A DNA stretch of 37,101 nt from Methylophaga sp. GTDB lineage: Bacteria; Pseudomonadota; Gammaproteobacteria; Nitrosococcales; Methylophagaceae. The notes beneath the pieces were generated by a model. That model had not been told where the DNA came from, did not search any database, and saw nothing but the letters and a program-made list of their open reading frames with translations. Position numbers and translations under genes: made by a program. The DNA lies in the NCBI GenBank assembly GCA_030148085.1, contig JASBUF010000043.1, forward strand, positions 1 to 37,101, read 5' to 3'. Shown in pieces: positions 25,865-29,931 of the stretch. Every line of letters starts with the position of its first letter. Position 1 is the first letter of the stretch.

Positions 25865-25941
25865 CGGGGCATGGCGCAGCCTGGTAGCGCACTTGCATGG
25901 GGTGCAAGGGGTCGTAGGTTCAAATCCTACTGTCCCGACCA
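25865..25941 (+). tRNA. tRNA-Pro (anticodon GGG)
   Basis: A 77-nt cloverleaf with encoded CCA. The acceptor stem is CGGGGCA paired with TGTCCCG (one G-U). The anticodon stem is CTTGC/GCAAG with loop ATGGGGT, giving anticodon GGG. The T loop is GGTTCAAATCC. The 3' part of the gene is the left copy of a 29-bp direct repeat bounding the inserted island, so the gene is rebuilt and functional after insertion. Confidence 0.96.
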
Positions 25942-25947
25942 AATTTC
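25919..25947. repeat. Left attachment-site repeat (attL) in tRNA-Pro 3' end
   Basis: A 29-bp exact match to 28669-28697. It spans the T-arm, acceptor 3' strand, CCA and the next few bases. Weaker similarity continues for about 50 bp on each copy and includes the tRNA terminator. This is the usual mark of site-specific insertion into a tRNA gene. Confidence 0.9.
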
Positions 25948-25954
25948 CAAAATT

Positions 25955-26001
25955 AAAAAAGCCTGTAAAGCCGCATTTTTAAAGGTTTTACAGGCTTTTT
26001 T
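25955..26001 (+). terminator. Terminator of tRNA-Pro
   Basis: AAAAAAGCCTGTAAA (25955-25969) pairs with TTTACAGGCTTTTTT (25987-26001). A decayed copy of the same hairpin, with a mismatch and no T-run, is found at 28711-28745 beyond the right repeat. Confidence 0.88.
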
Positions 26002-26034
26002 GTTTCCTAATTCCGAACCAACAAAATTCAAAAA

Positions 26035-26085
26035 TTGGCACCAAATTGGCACCATTTGGCACTTTTGGTGCCAATTAAGTGCCAC
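26035..26085. repeat. Left cluster of TGGCAC/GTGCCA repeats (candidate integrase arm sites)
   Basis: TTGGCACC at 26035-26042 and 26046-26053, TTGGCAC at 26056-26062, then inverted GGTGCCAA at 26067-26074 and AGTGCCAC at 26078-26085. The last 23 bp (26063-26085) match 28585-28607 at 21 of 23 positions in the same orientation. Confidence 0.72.
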
Positions 26086-26396
26086 TTAAAATACGACTTT
26101 TCCTCTGACGTATTTGTGGCTCTAATTGCATACACTTGGCCATAAAACTCAAAGTGACTATGTGCTGATATTTTTCAGCCGTTTACTGCTTTTGGTTGTT
26201 TGTGTCTTGTTGTTAAATATGAAATGACTTATGGTGAGGCAGGCACAAGCTAGGGCTTAGGTGTTTACAAAACTGCTAACCTAGCAGTCTCAGAAATTAG
26301 CAATCACTTGTCTATCAGTCATCACACAATATATTTCTGGAATCATTACTGAGCTGAAAAATCCAATCTCTGAAAACAACACTGGGAACTGAAGAA
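26086..26396 (+). promoter_or_regulatory. Leader region of the island genes
   Basis: There is no coding potential in this 311-nt AT-rich stretch, which presumably holds the promoter for the three island genes. The only clear structure is CTGCTA-ACC-TAGCAG (26273-26287), a short inverted repeat about 110 nt before the first gene that could be an operator. I see no convincing -35/-10 pair. Confidence 0.35.
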
Positions 26397-26891
26397 ATGG
26401 ATATCGAGAGTTATTTAGAGAGTAAAGGAATAGGCTATGAGGAGTTGAGTGAGCCTGAAAGGAGAGCAATATCTAACTTTGCCGTTATCTGGACACTTTT
26501 TGAGGCCAAGTTGTTAGATGAAAATGCTTCAGCATTAAAGATCCATGAGAAAGCAAAAGAATGGATTGATAACTATGGAACAGATGAACACTTTATAGAC
26601 ACTCACCTGGATTATTTCAGAAACAGATATGTCGATGGTGTTGAGTTGAATTATAGGTATGGGCGTCTTTATTTAAGAAAAAATGACCTAGCTCCTTTAG
26701 TCACGGGAGTGTTGCTGAAACAAATAGATGATCCAATCAGTAAATTAACTTCTTGCCTTATTATTATCCTGCGCTATAGAAATAATTACTTTCATGGAAT
26801 CAAATGGGCTTATCAATTTAGAGACCAGCAAGACAACTTTGAGACAGCTAGCAGTATCCTTACTTGGTGTATTGATAGATATGACCATTAG
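26397..26891 (+). CDS. Hypothetical protein with HEPN-like Rx4H motif
   Basis: A 164-aa, mostly helical protein, first gene of the island. Near the C-terminus LRYRNNYFHG contains Arg128-Asn129-x3-His133, the R-N-x3-H signature of HEPN domains, which are often RNases in toxin-antitoxin and phage-defence systems. The surrounding long hydrophobic helix (PISKLTSCLIIILRYRNNYFHG) and the C-terminal helix fit a HEPN four-helix bundle, but I do not recognise a named family. A GAAGAA run precedes the ATG. AT-rich codon use suggests transfer. It is followed by the membrane protein gene after 60 nt. Confidence 0.68.
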   Translation: MDIESYLESKGIGYEELSEPERRAISNFAVIWTLFEAKLLDENASALKIHEKAKEWIDNYGTDEHFIDTHLDYFRNRYVDGVELNYRYGRLYLRKNDLAPLVTGVLLKQIDDPISKLTSCLIIILRYRNNYFHGIKWAYQFRDQQDNFETASSILTWCIDRYDH

Positions 26892-26951
26892 CTTGTCTTG
26901 TAAATTAATGTCTTGCCTCACTCGAAATGAAAACTTGGATTTGTTATAAGG

Positions 26952-27509
26952 ATGTTCGAAATAAATATGGAATACATCTCAATTGCTGTTTCAATAATGG
27001 CTCTTTCACTAAGTGCATTTACATTTTATTGGGTTCAATTGAGAGTCAAAAACAAACTCCATTTAGTACGAATAGATAAAATCGCTGAATTCAAAGAACC
27101 ATTATTTGCCTTAGTCAATAGCGGCACTAAAGATATTCTCATCACTTCTGTTCTTGGTCATTTCATTGATAAAGATGAACTAGGTGGCACATATCCAGCC
27201 CAACGTGTGGAAATAGGTGAGGGCGCGTCTATGCTTCTTAAAGCTGGAAGCGCCGTAGAGTGTAAGATTAGCTTTTTAGAAGATTTTACTAATGCATTTA
27301 TAAAGCAAGGTAAGTTGATTGAAAGTACATTACCTGAGATTTATGAATATGTTTTCGAGATAGAAGTCAGTTGGGTTGACTCAAAGGCACAGAGTCATAG
27401 TGGAAAAGCCCAAATTGCGAAATATGGATTCAGTGAAAATATGGGAGCCAGGATGTTTTCCCCATTACAGGCTAAGCATGACTTATACAAAAAGACAGGG
27501 AAAGTTTAG
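26952..27509 (+). CDS. Hypothetical single-pass membrane protein
   Basis: A 185-aa protein with one membrane helix near the N-terminus (about residues 8-28, ISIAVSIMALSLSAFTFYW), a short basic stretch (RVKNK) and a soluble remainder that looks beta-rich (LHLVRIDKIAEFKEPLFALVNSG, EIGEGASMLLKAGS). The basic stretch after the helix suggests the soluble part is cytoplasmic. The start is uncertain: AAGGA overlaps the ATG at 26952, so the ATG at 26967 (MEYISIAV) may be used. No family recognised. Its stop overlaps the GTG of the nuclease gene by 1 nt, so the two are translationally coupled; it may act as membrane sensor or anchor for the nuclease (inference). Confidence 0.72.
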   Translation: MFEINMEYISIAVSIMALSLSAFTFYWVQLRVKNKLHLVRIDKIAEFKEPLFALVNSGTKDILITSVLGHFIDKDELGGTYPAQRVEIGEGASMLLKAGSAVECKISFLEDFTNAFIKQGKLIESTLPEIYEYVFEIEVSWVDSKAQSHSGKAQIAKYGFSENMGARMFSPLQAKHDLYKKTGKV

Positions 27510-28429
27510 TGAAGAATAAAAGGTTATCCCCTGCAGCAATAATTGCTCTAAAAGAAGCTCTCTGCAGTATTTATTGGTACAAAAATGAATTGAGGAGTTT
27601 TTTAAGTAACTGTCTGAATGACAGAGGACTTGTTGCCTCACTGGATTGGAATGCTTATAAGCGTCAAATAGTCTCTGATTTGGTAGATATTCTATGTGAT
27701 GATCAAGAGAGATACTTATCAGCATTGACTAAGTTGTGCTACGAAACTATCAACCTAAAGAGCTTTTCTCATCTAAAACAACTTGATGGTGGGGAGCAAA
27801 AAGCAAGAAGAGCTGAAGAGGCCGTATCTCAGTTACGCGAGTTAGTTGAGCCTCACCAAGAAATAGTTAAAGAACAAGAAAATATTGAGAAGAGAAAAAA
27901 AGAGTTCAGTGAAAAGCTAAAATCCAATAAAGCTGTAAGGGAAAAACTTTCTGAACTTAATAAGCATTTTTTGTCAGTTGCTACTTCATCCGATCCACAG
28001 CGAAAAGGCTATGATTTGGAAAAGTTAATGTATGACATATTCGAACTCTTTGACTTGGATCCGAAAGCCTCTTTCAGAAATCTTGGTGAGCAAATAGATG
28101 GTGCATTTAATTTGGAAAGCACTGAATATCTATTCGAAGCAAAGTGGAAAAGTGGTTTGATTGGAGTTCAAGAGCTGGATGCTTTTTCAGCTAAAGTAGC
28201 AAGGAAGCTTGATAATACTCTGGGCGTATTTCTGGCAATGAATGGGTATTCTCAAGATGGCATAAATGCACACTCAGTCGGGCGACCTAATATTATCCTG
28301 ATGGATGGCTCTGATTTGATGGCAGTATTGGAGGAGAGAATCGACCTTGTGACATTGTTGATCAGGAAGAAGCGTCATGCTGCACAGACTGGAGAAATTT
28401 TCCTACCCGCTTACAGATTAGAACTCTGA
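27509..28429 (+). CDS. Mrr-like restriction endonuclease-fold protein
   Basis: A 306-aa protein: N-terminal helical domain (about 1-95), charged coiled coil (about 95-150) and a C-terminal PD-(D/E)xK nuclease domain of the Mrr/restriction-endonuclease-like type (about 165-290). The catalytic pattern is visible as Asp197 (EQIDGAF) with Glu210-x-Lys212 (FEAKW), preceded by KGYDLEKLMYDIFELF and followed by a GVQELDAF helix. It probably cuts DNA, but modification dependence or specificity cannot be told. No methyltransferase is nearby. GTG start with AGGGAAAG upstream, overlapping the previous stop (TAGTG). Third and last gene of the island. Confidence 0.85.
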   Translation: MKNKRLSPAAIIALKEALCSIYWYKNELRSFLSNCLNDRGLVASLDWNAYKRQIVSDLVDILCDDQERYLSALTKLCYETINLKSFSHLKQLDGGEQKARRAEEAVSQLRELVEPHQEIVKEQENIEKRKKEFSEKLKSNKAVREKLSELNKHFLSVATSSDPQRKGYDLEKLMYDIFELFDLDPKASFRNLGEQIDGAFNLESTEYLFEAKWKSGLIGVQELDAFSAKVARKLDNTLGVFLAMNGYSQDGINAHSVGRPNIILMDGSDLMAVLEERIDLVTLLIRKKRHAAQTGEIFLPAYRLEL

Positions 28430-28584
28430 ATAAGGATATGCCTCAGCAGCCTTCCTTAAAATGATTCATTGAATTAGTACTTGGACTAGATAGTATTTAA
28501 TCAAATGAATGTTGAAGTTTTCTTTTTATTGCTTGTGAATTTGAGCTTTTTTTATGAGAACAATAGGTTTTTATGTAGGTTAAT

Positions 28585-28607
28585 TTTTGGTGCCATTTTA
28601 GTGCCAC
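28585..28607. repeat. Right GTGCCA repeat (candidate integrase arm sites)
   Basis: GGTGCCAT (28589-28596) and AGTGCCAC (28600-28607) preceded by TTTT. It matches 26063-26085 at 21 of 23 positions in direct orientation, about 62 nt inside the right att repeat. Confidence 0.7.
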
Positions 28608-28668
28608 ACCTGATTTAAGGTGTTGATAAATAATTGAAATTTAAAAATTTAGCAATCGAGGATAAAGT

Positions 28669-28697
28669 TTCAAATCCTACTGTCCCGACCAAATTTC
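28669..28697. repeat. Right attachment-site repeat (attR), partial tRNA-Pro copy
   Basis: The second copy of the 29-bp repeat. It covers only the T-arm and acceptor 3' part of tRNA-Pro, so it is not a functional tRNA. The bases beyond it resemble the tRNA downstream region with many changes. Confidence 0.9.
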
Positions 28698-28771
28698 TCA
28701 AATTAAGAAAGACTGTAAAGCGAGATTTTTAATGTTTTTACAGGCAAATTTCTTTTAACAAAAAACTTCTG

Positions 28772-29482
28772 TTACCTGACATCAATCTCTACTCGACGGT
28801 TTTTAGGTTCTGGTGTGTTGTCAGGTGTATCGACAAGCAATTGATATTCACCTTTACCTTCGGTAGTGATGATCTCCGCAGCAATTCCCATCTCAATCAG
28901 CGCTTTTTGGACTTTCAATGCTCTTCGCAACGATAACTCTTCGTTGTAATGGTATGAAGCAGCAGTATCGGTGTGACCGATAATCGAAATTGCGGCAACC
29001 TGACGATTAGTAATTTCATCAAACACCGCCTTCGCTTTGATTTTCGACTCCGCAGTCAACTCATCTTTGTCCAATAGAAAATAGAGTTTTGCATGATAGG
29101 GAGCAGGGGGGAGTGCAGATACGGCGTCTCCAAAGAGTTCATTTAACGCATCAGCATCACCGGTAAAGGTCTGGAATTGATCACCAGAGACACTCATACC
29201 CTCGTAGTCCCCCTCAAGCACGTGTTCCGACCCGTCTATAAAAGTCACAACGACTGTACCTACGCGACCTTCTTCAGGCATCACGATATAAGTTTCTGAG
29301 GGAACGAAGCAAAACGGTGATTTAGCTTCACTGAGTTGGAGTGGTGCTTTTATACTCTGACGAAGATCAGACACACGTCTTTCAGGTCCAAGGCTGTTCA
29401 CCATGTCGCTGTATGTGGCACAGCCGGCCAGCGTGAACACAAAACTCCCGAGAGCCAGAGTTCGAATGCAATAGCTCCTCAT
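28772..29482 (-). CDS. OmpA-family outer-membrane lipoprotein
   Basis: A 236-aa protein with a lipoprotein signal (TLAGC, lipidated Cys21) and a C-terminal OmpA/peptidoglycan-binding domain (about 125-236: ISIIGHTDTAASYHYNEELSLRRA, and the closing EPKNRRVEIDVR). It should sit in the outer membrane and hold peptidoglycan. The middle part (VGTVVVTFIDGSEHVLEG) is unassigned. Its start overlaps the stop of the fecR-domain gene by 4 nt, so they form an operon. FecR, OmpA-lipoprotein and CHASE2 proteins often go together, which links it to the signalling genes at 31319-34302. Confidence 0.9.
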   Translation of the reverse strand: MRSYCIRTLALGSFVFTLAGCATYSDMVNSLGPERRVSDLRQSIKAPLQLSEAKSPFCFVPSETYIVMPEEGRVGTVVVTFIDGSEHVLEGDYEGMSVSGDQFQTFTGDADALNELFGDAVSALPPAPYHAKLYFLLDKDELTAESKIKAKAVFDEITNRQVAAISIIGHTDTAASYHYNEELSLRRALKVQKALIEMGIAAEIITTEGKGEYQLLVDTPDNTPEPKNRRVEIDVR

Positions 29483-29931
29483 GGCTTGGGATCGACTTTG
29501 ATTGAAAACTCAGTACCACGAACGGCAAGAATGGCTGCAGGCGTTTTCACTTTCAGTGCGCCCGGAGTCTTCTCAGTCATTTTCCCTGCAATAACAGATA
29601 AAGTGCCATGTTTGACTGAAATATCAGCAGAGCCCTTATGAGTCTGCGTATCAAAGTTGAACTGGTCTAATTTCATCACGGTGTTAGGGCCCATGGAAAC
29701 CCTCGCATCATCATGCATCAACATGCCAACGCTACTCTTATCAGCGGTAGTCACTTCATCCTGAGCAAACAATTCATCGCCCAATTTCGCATCAATAATC
29801 TCAGAGTCACGTTGAATGCTAACGCTACCGGTGAGGGTTTTAATCACACCAATAGAATCATCGGCAAATACATTTGGCAGGTAAAAAATGAACAGAAGTG
29901 GGGTTAGGTAGAATGTTTTTAATTTGGCCAT
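29479..29931 (-). CDS. Exported FecR-domain protein
   Basis: A 150-aa protein with a signal peptide (cleavage near VFA-DD, about residue 23) and a single FecR domain: IGVIKTLTGSVSIQRD, LGDELFAQDEVTTADKSSVGMLMHDDARVSMGPNT, GTLSVIAGKM, VKTPAAILAVRGTEFSI. There is no transmembrane anchor and no anti-sigma part, so this is the free periplasmic type, not the iron-citrate regulator. AAGAGGGA precedes the ATG. It lies 38 nt after glsA and overlaps the ompA-like gene by 4 nt. Confidence 0.9.
   Translation of the reverse strand: MAKLKTFYLTPLLFIFYLPNVFADDSIGVIKTLTGSVSIQRDSEIIDAKLGDELFAQDEVTTADKSSVGMLMHDDARVSMGPNTVMKLDQFNFDTQTHKGSADISVKHGTLSVIAGKMTEKTPGALKVKTPAAILAVRGTEFSIKVDPKP

Follow-up and report, generated by a model that had tools for sequence, protein, structure and literature searches.

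A 2.75-kb insert in a tRNA-Pro gene of Methylophaga sp., carrying only three genes, is bounded by sequences that resemble the two halves of a phage attachment site (attP), and no integrase gene was found in it. The insert, called the island here, lies in contig JASBUF010000043.1 of a draft genome that is about 90% complete; the window means the whole analysed stretch of 37,101 nt. The genes encode a HEPN-like protein (P1), an orphan protein with a predicted membrane segment (P2) and an Mrr-type nuclease (P3). We consider it slightly better than even (a probability of roughly 0.55) that the island is a non-autonomous cassette with anti-phage cargo that is moved in trans by a phage integrase. 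The ends of the island would be attP half-sites, composed of a core from the tRNA-Pro 3′ end and of arm-type binding sites (GGTGCCA doublets) of the type found at the attP of phages with Phage_integrase-family recombinases. As the island encodes no recombinase, its integration and excision would depend on an integrase that a phage provides in trans.

Island ends and phage attachment sites

The positions of all features are in Table 1. The sequence-only reading had described repeats of the tRNA-Pro end around an AT-rich insert with three co-directional open reading frames (ORFs), the last two overlapping by 1 nt. This description was correct throughout: the 29-bp repeat is exact at both ends, the GC content is 36.5% in the insert and 47.9% in the rest of the window, and the ORFs have the expected lengths, direction and overlap. 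The gap between P1 and P2 is 61 nt. Each ORF exceeds the longest one in 200 first-order Markov shuffles of the island (maximum, 150 amino acids). A longer repeat of 90 nt (84% identity) was also detected, and the degenerate copy of the left flank beyond the right core was perhaps left by a previous insertion into this tRNA gene. Searches with five integrases (tblastn) detected neither an integrase nor a remnant of one in the island.

Table 1. Features of the tRNA-Pro island and its borders in the window.
Feature	Position	Strand	Basis or remark
tRNA-Pro (GGG), target of the insertion, with the left core at its 3′ end	25865..25941	+	ARAGORN; tRNA locus matched in 24/24 genus genomes
Left attachment core, exact 29-bp repeat	25919..25947	+	Repeat analysis
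Terminator-like inverted repeat between left core and left arms	25955..26001		Inverted-repeat analysis
Left arm cluster: two direct TGGCAC units and one more, then an inverted GTGCCA doublet	26036..26085		
P1, 164 aa, HEPN-like, R128-N129-x3-H133	26397..26891	+	
P2, 185 aa, orphan, one predicted N-terminal membrane segment	26952..27509	+	
P3, 306 aa, GTG start; N-terminal helical domain with a weak match to EAD8, then long helices and an Mrr-type PD-(D/E)xK nuclease at the C-terminus	27509..28429	+	
Right arm doublet TTTTGGTGCCATTTTAGTGCCAC	28585..28607		
Right attachment core, same 29-bp repeat	28669..28697	+	
Degenerate repeat of the left flank that includes the terminator-like stem	28698..28755	+	84% over 90 nt

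Just inside both ends of the island, GTGCCA/TGGCAC units are spaced about 11 nt apart. The left and right arms agree at 21 of 23 positions (score 19), a score that none of 60 pairs of shuffled sequences reached. When up to one mismatch was allowed, GGTGCCANNTNAGTGCCAC had exactly two matches in its own genome, which are the two ends of the island, and a single match in 56 other genomes of the family. Among 369 genomes of the class, the one-mismatch doublet matched once each in five other genomes, compared with two matches for the control; none of the three that were inspected (L139, L142 and L143) had a recognisable integrase within 3 kb. When the island ends are joined, the right doublet is 196 nt from the first left doublet, in opposite orientation, and 228 nt from the left doublet in the same orientation.

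The single match in the family (genome G049, same genus) belongs to a 2.4-kb island in tRNA-Leu(CAA), likewise without an integrase by tblastn. Its joined ends have the doublets in the same order as the window island, (-)(+)(+)(-), at distances of 163 nt (opposite orientation) and 195 nt (same orientation), and one arm block is identical to that of the window at 25 of 25 nt. The G049 island carries, as its only cargo, three ORFs of 196, 215 and 197 amino acids (L132, 8381-10231) with no convincing family; it is a candidate new defence locus.

Doublets of the same type are found in phages. The motif TTGGCACCNNNTTGGCACC was present in 68 stretches of 65 viral contigs. A second doublet in the same orientation was 100-260 nt away in 23 of the 68 stretches but in none at each of three control distances; such pairs are 167-227 nt apart in phages. 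A core like a tRNA 3′ end was found by pattern search within 260 nt of the motif in 15 stretches. For stretches that carry an integrase related to the four found beside the motif, 27 of 29 had the motif within 450 nt of it (8.6 expected). Without the four query loci and three near copies the numbers were 20 of 22 (6.3 expected), some of the remaining 22 integrase stretches being still related to each other. Three of these phage integrases match PF00589 (Phage_integrase family). Ends that resemble the attP of phage integrases, one feature expected of an element mobilised in trans, were present in the window island, and also in an island of genome G033 at the same tRNA-Pro.

Proposed movement in trans, or possible decay of a complete element

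In 5 of the 24 genomes of the genus, the tRNA 3′ end recurs further downstream on the contig that holds the tRNA gene. The elements between the copies measure 2.75 kb in the window, 3.1 kb in G033, 5.4 kb in G048, 0.5 kb in G051 and 38 kb in G054, the last with an integrase gene at its left end. The G033 island has one long gene, assigned to PDC-S06 (PADLOC, E 2.5e-226), and the G048 island (L115, 3746-8488) has a DRT UG5-nitrilase reverse transcriptase (PADLOC, E 9.5e-303). These recognised defence genes in two other small islands at the same site suggest, through guilt by association, an anti-phage role for the window cargo. The G048 island also encodes a 402-amino-acid protein with no convincing match, a possible partner of the reverse transcriptase. 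The G051 insert (L116, about 1026-1528) between two tRNA-Pro ends has no ORF of at least 80 amino acids and is possibly an emptied island.

The G033 island could be paired with a phage. Its left arm block and that of G054 align over 41 nt with 40 matches and 1 mismatch (score 39), and the right arms are similar. A viral contig, L253, carries an undivided attP with the tRNA-Pro core and the arms as in G033 and G054; its integrase and the one in G054 are 99.7% identical. When the joined ends of G033 were aligned to the L253 attP, the core and the arms agreed while the spacers diverged. Agreement in the core is expected from the tRNA itself; agreement in the arms is not. The G054 element and L253 also have, at the same place, a stem resembling the terminator-like one of the window island.

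The main alternative for the vehicle is decay: a phage, satellite or integrative element would have lost its integrase and other mobility genes, leaving the attachment sites and a few cargo genes, as in a cis-mobilizable element (CIME, PMC5704250), and would now move only by chance. We regard this as a real but lesser possibility. The definition of a CIME fits the anatomy of the island exactly, and the degenerate copy at 28698-28755 marks the site as old and layered. The integrase gene of attP-bearing phage contigs is close to one of the doublets, and its loss by deletion could therefore leave the arms intact. That no resident helper was found in the genome is also in line with decay. Several observations are harder to reconcile with it. 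By tblastn, integrase matches in the islands of the window, G033, G048, G051 and G049 were noise only (E 1.3 or worse), with no remnant in any of them. In the islands of the window, G033 and G049, both sets of arms have been preserved well, in contrast to the divergent spacers. An integrase is missing from all four islands of 2.4-5.4 kb, each with a different cargo, and precise repeated loss would be the less economical explanation. The absence of remnants, the kept arms and the four islands point to selection for the ends without proving it.

Other results weigh against mobilisation in trans. The genome itself has one match to an integrase profile, of only 24 bits, so no resident helper is evident in this assembly, and neither excision nor a circular form was observed. 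The tRNA-Pro end GTCCCGACCA was in none of the 68 phage stretches, so the proper helper of the window island was not seen among them; a pattern combining GTGCCAC with the tRNA-Pro core had no match in the viral contigs, and a stricter doublet pattern found there only four stretches, which were in coding DNA, were not attP-like and were rejected. No related integrase was found in 39 of the 68 stretches; these may be truncated, may depend on integrases of another kind or may match by chance. The end-repeat scores of the G048 and G051 islands were not significant, being reached by 4 and 13 of 60 shuffles, respectively. As for the cargo, P1, P2 and P3 were found together nowhere else in the collections searched, and P2 is an orphan.

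The DNA to the right of the island matches, at the nucleotide level, only 2 of the 23 other genomes of the genus, in G048 as pieces of 77 and 35 nt. The right flank is therefore variable too, and a clean empty site could not be reconstructed. In G034, the nearest genome by tRNA locus (90%), the tRNA is not repeated at this place and is followed by other DNA. By ORF reading, the right flank (28772-29931) contains OmpA-like and FecR-like ORFs.

Relation to known elements

Elements with attachment sites at both ends and no integration or transfer genes are already known as CIMEs (PMC5704250). The island has both attL and attR, as 29-bp cores and arms. CIMEs, however, are described as decayed integrative and conjugative elements (ICEs) or integrative and mobilizable elements (IMEs), while the island has no detectable remnant and no sign of a former ICE or IME. 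The islands described here further differ in keeping arm sites at both ends, in their size of 2.4-5.4 kb and in arms that match phage attP. Elements that depend on the recombination enzyme of a helper are known as well: hitcher genetic elements, miniature inverted-repeat transposable elements (MITEs) and clusters of attC sites lacking integron integrases (CALINs) (PMC11389934). MITEs use transposases and CALINs use integron integrases, whereas a phage integrase is proposed for the island; no att-only cassette that relies on the tyrosine integrase of a phage is described in the available part of that paper.

Phage satellites carry their own integrase together with replication or packaging genes. 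The presence of an integrase of their own is mentioned in the abstract of PMC13376191. The island is similar to P4-like satellites and phage-inducible chromosomal islands (PICI) in being small, inserted in a tRNA gene, provided with putative defence cargo and presumably dependent on phages, but it has three ORFs only, no integrase match and no replication or packaging genes.

Defence genes at variable sites without a detectable mobile element, as in the island, have been reported from hotspots of Escherichia coli, with the mode of transfer unknown (PMC10121019); for one hotspot, 68.0% of the cases had no detectable mobile element. That survey required at least 10 genes per island and counted hotspots of up to three genes as empty; it would therefore have overlooked cassettes of this kind.

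We found no description of att-only defence cassettes moved by phage integrases in the open-licence literature. Nor was a class of elements seen there that keeps phage arm sites, has no remnants and carries defence cargo whenever the cargo is recognisable. Such a class, in which phage attP half-sites enclose one to three anti-phage genes and no integrase, is conceivable, at somewhat less than even odds. Just as tentatively, its members might parasitise integrases from phages that enter the cell or already reside in it, and in this way insert into tRNA genes, excise from them and replace one another there. It is equally tentative that the arm types (GGTGCCA and ACAGCCA) track different phage integrases, and that phages thereby carry genes that defend against phages.

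If ends with phage-integrase binding sites suffice to move defence genes that lack a recognisable mobile element, matching arm doublets at both ends should be sought instead of integrase genes. Very small islands and their cargo could then be delimited, and each island could be paired with a candidate helper phage by its arm type, as G033 with L253.

The three cargo genes

P3 is the only one of the three proteins that was named by Pfam, PADLOC, NCBIfam or PHROGs. The PD-(D/E)xK motif pointed out in the sequence-only reading, D197...E210-x-K212, was confirmed. The C-terminal part of P3 matches Pfam Mrr_cat (PF04471) with 24.1 bits, above the cut-off of 21, and E171, E194, Q195, D197, E210, K212 and K233 are identical in all eight aligned relatives. 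The predicted structure (predicted local distance difference test score, pLDDT, 84.0; predicted template-modelling score, pTM, 0.55) has the restriction-endonuclease fold; its best Foldseek match was MspJI (E 9.7e-4, probability 1.00, template-modelling score only 0.27 on the query), with Cdn1, HindIII and FokI further down. Judged from sequence and model, P3 is an Mrr-type nuclease with an intact active site. It shares the catalytic core and motif with type IV restriction endonucleases of the Mrr type, known by the Mrr_cat domain of Pfam and the MspJI fold. It differs from them in that a helical N-terminal domain stands where a known DNA-recognition domain would be and in its coupling to an orphan membrane protein. 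The helical part matches effector-associated domain 8 weakly (E 0.013; 16.6 bits, cut-off 27).

For P1, the HEPN signature claimed from the sequence stood as a motif and by its placement, while no fold or profile search gave a significant HEPN match that would confirm the fold. In an alignment of 47 members (the window protein and 46 of 73 genome loci, chosen for clean ORFs), H133 and N130 of the motif R128-N129-N130-Y131-F132-H133 were present in all 47, and R128 and N129 in 46 each. The motif has the form Rx4-6H with N, D or H after the R, as in the HEPN superfamily. There it spans the end of helix 3 and the loop before helix 4 (PMC3710099). In the AlphaFold2 model of P1 (pLDDT 92.2), it ends a helix at 113-132, which is followed by a short helix (135-138) and another helix (145-163); this position is as in HEPN domains. 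P1 differs from the known HEPN ribonucleases in the lack of a Pfam HEPN match in any of the 47 members and of a significant fold match. Foldseek against the Protein Data Bank (PDB) gave no match at E ≤0.001; among 50 listed entries, seven were named HEPN and four were of the MntA-HepT type, the best at E 0.84, which is not significant. A fold search in BFVD gave no match, and hmmsearch against PDB sequences gave one weak match to an unrelated protein. In Pfam, PADLOC, NCBIfam and PHROGs, P1 matched only the unnamed family phrog_27260 (E 3.9e-8).

Relatives of P1 were found at 73 loci in the genome scan and in 9 plasmid records, and none in the other 56 genomes of the family, in 62 genomes of the order, in phage records or in viral contigs. 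Neighbours within 4.5 kb were compared for 81 loci (73 genome, 8 plasmid). A TrlF-like ATPase was present at 11 of these and a GIY-YIG protein at 9 (both names from plasmid annotation); a Lit-like protein was also present at 9 (PADLOC on one member, E 2.3e-14). PDC-S06 ATPases were present at 5, all of which were tested. In these five (L006, L028, L062, L068 and L069), the P1 relative is directly downstream of PDC-S06, the end of the PDC-S06 gene lying anywhere from 23 nt ahead of the P1 match to 3 nt within it; L006 and L028 look like copies of one locus. The arrangement suggests that PDC-S06 can have a HEPN-like partner. As TrlF, Lit-like, GIY-YIG and PDC-S06 proteins recur beside it, P1 resembles a defence protein whose partners change from locus to locus.

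P2 has one predicted membrane segment near its N-terminus and received no family name from Pfam, PADLOC, NCBIfam or PHROGs. No relative was found in plasmids, phages, 63 genomes of the order and 369 of the class, nor in viral contigs and genome contigs, where the searches had only close relatives within reach. The proposal that P2 is a membrane sensor has no support beyond the predicted segment.

The domains and the gene order suggest a model for the cargo. P3 would be a DNA endonuclease translationally coupled to membrane-anchored P2, which would tether or gate it at the site of phage DNA entry, the membrane. P1 would be a HEPN-like effector of the RNase type that stops growth if cutting fails. 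That the three proteins act together in this way is possible, although we would not put it at even odds.

They were first read as one defence unit. A classical three-gene system of HEPN protein, membrane protein and Mrr nuclease, lying in a tRNA island incidentally, would agree with the co-directional genes, with the 1-nt overlap of P2 and P3, and with a P3 homologue of 56% identity that adjoins P1, though divergently, in Pseudomonas avellanae (L036). We nevertheless consider it unlikely. The trio was not met with elsewhere as far as we searched: P2 had no match by tblastn in 82 fetched loci, and P3-like genes were detected by tblastn at only 3 of the 81 P1 loci (L036, L034 and L005), so conservation of the set is unsupported. 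Within this search, the unit thus fails the refuting condition attached to the sequence-only reading, namely that the genes do not recur together. P1 has the many other partners described above, and relatives of P3 are solitary in phage and prophage contigs. They were found in three contigs of the viral collection (L004, L146 and L147; 41-58% identity) and in 4 of 368 other sampled genomes of the class, only one of these exceeding 50% identity (52%). In L004, the P3 relative adjoins an ORF that reads as reverse-transcriptase-like.

The genes could also be independent cargo. P2-P3 and P1 would then be defence or toxin genes that share an island without being related, each acting alone. We find this less likely than not, but somewhat more probable than a conserved system. 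The P1 and P3 families each have independent lives, and 61 nt separate P1 from P2. Against this, the island has only three genes, all on the same strand, and promoter-like sites between the genes were not above chance (4 found versus 9.3 expected from shuffles). A toxin-antitoxin-like or housekeeping set unrelated to phages seems improbable. P1 has no family annotation and the functions given here are predicted ones, which would leave room for such a set; the Mrr-type nuclease and the defence neighbours of P1 in many genomes speak against it. These alternatives for the cargo do not exclude either explanation of the vehicle, mobilisation in trans or decay.

Two related loci have gene arrangements of their own. 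In L036 (6822-9804), the P3-like nuclease is followed by a 406-amino-acid protein with HEPN_Toprim_N and HEPN_RiboL-PSP domains. In L149 (4008-8758), a 178-amino-acid DUF6680 protein with a hydrophobic N-terminus, unrelated to P2, is just upstream of a distant, Mrr-like relative of P3; the locus, which includes a long ORF, reads like a Type I restriction-modification system and may be a parallel case of a membrane protein gene preceding an Mrr gene.

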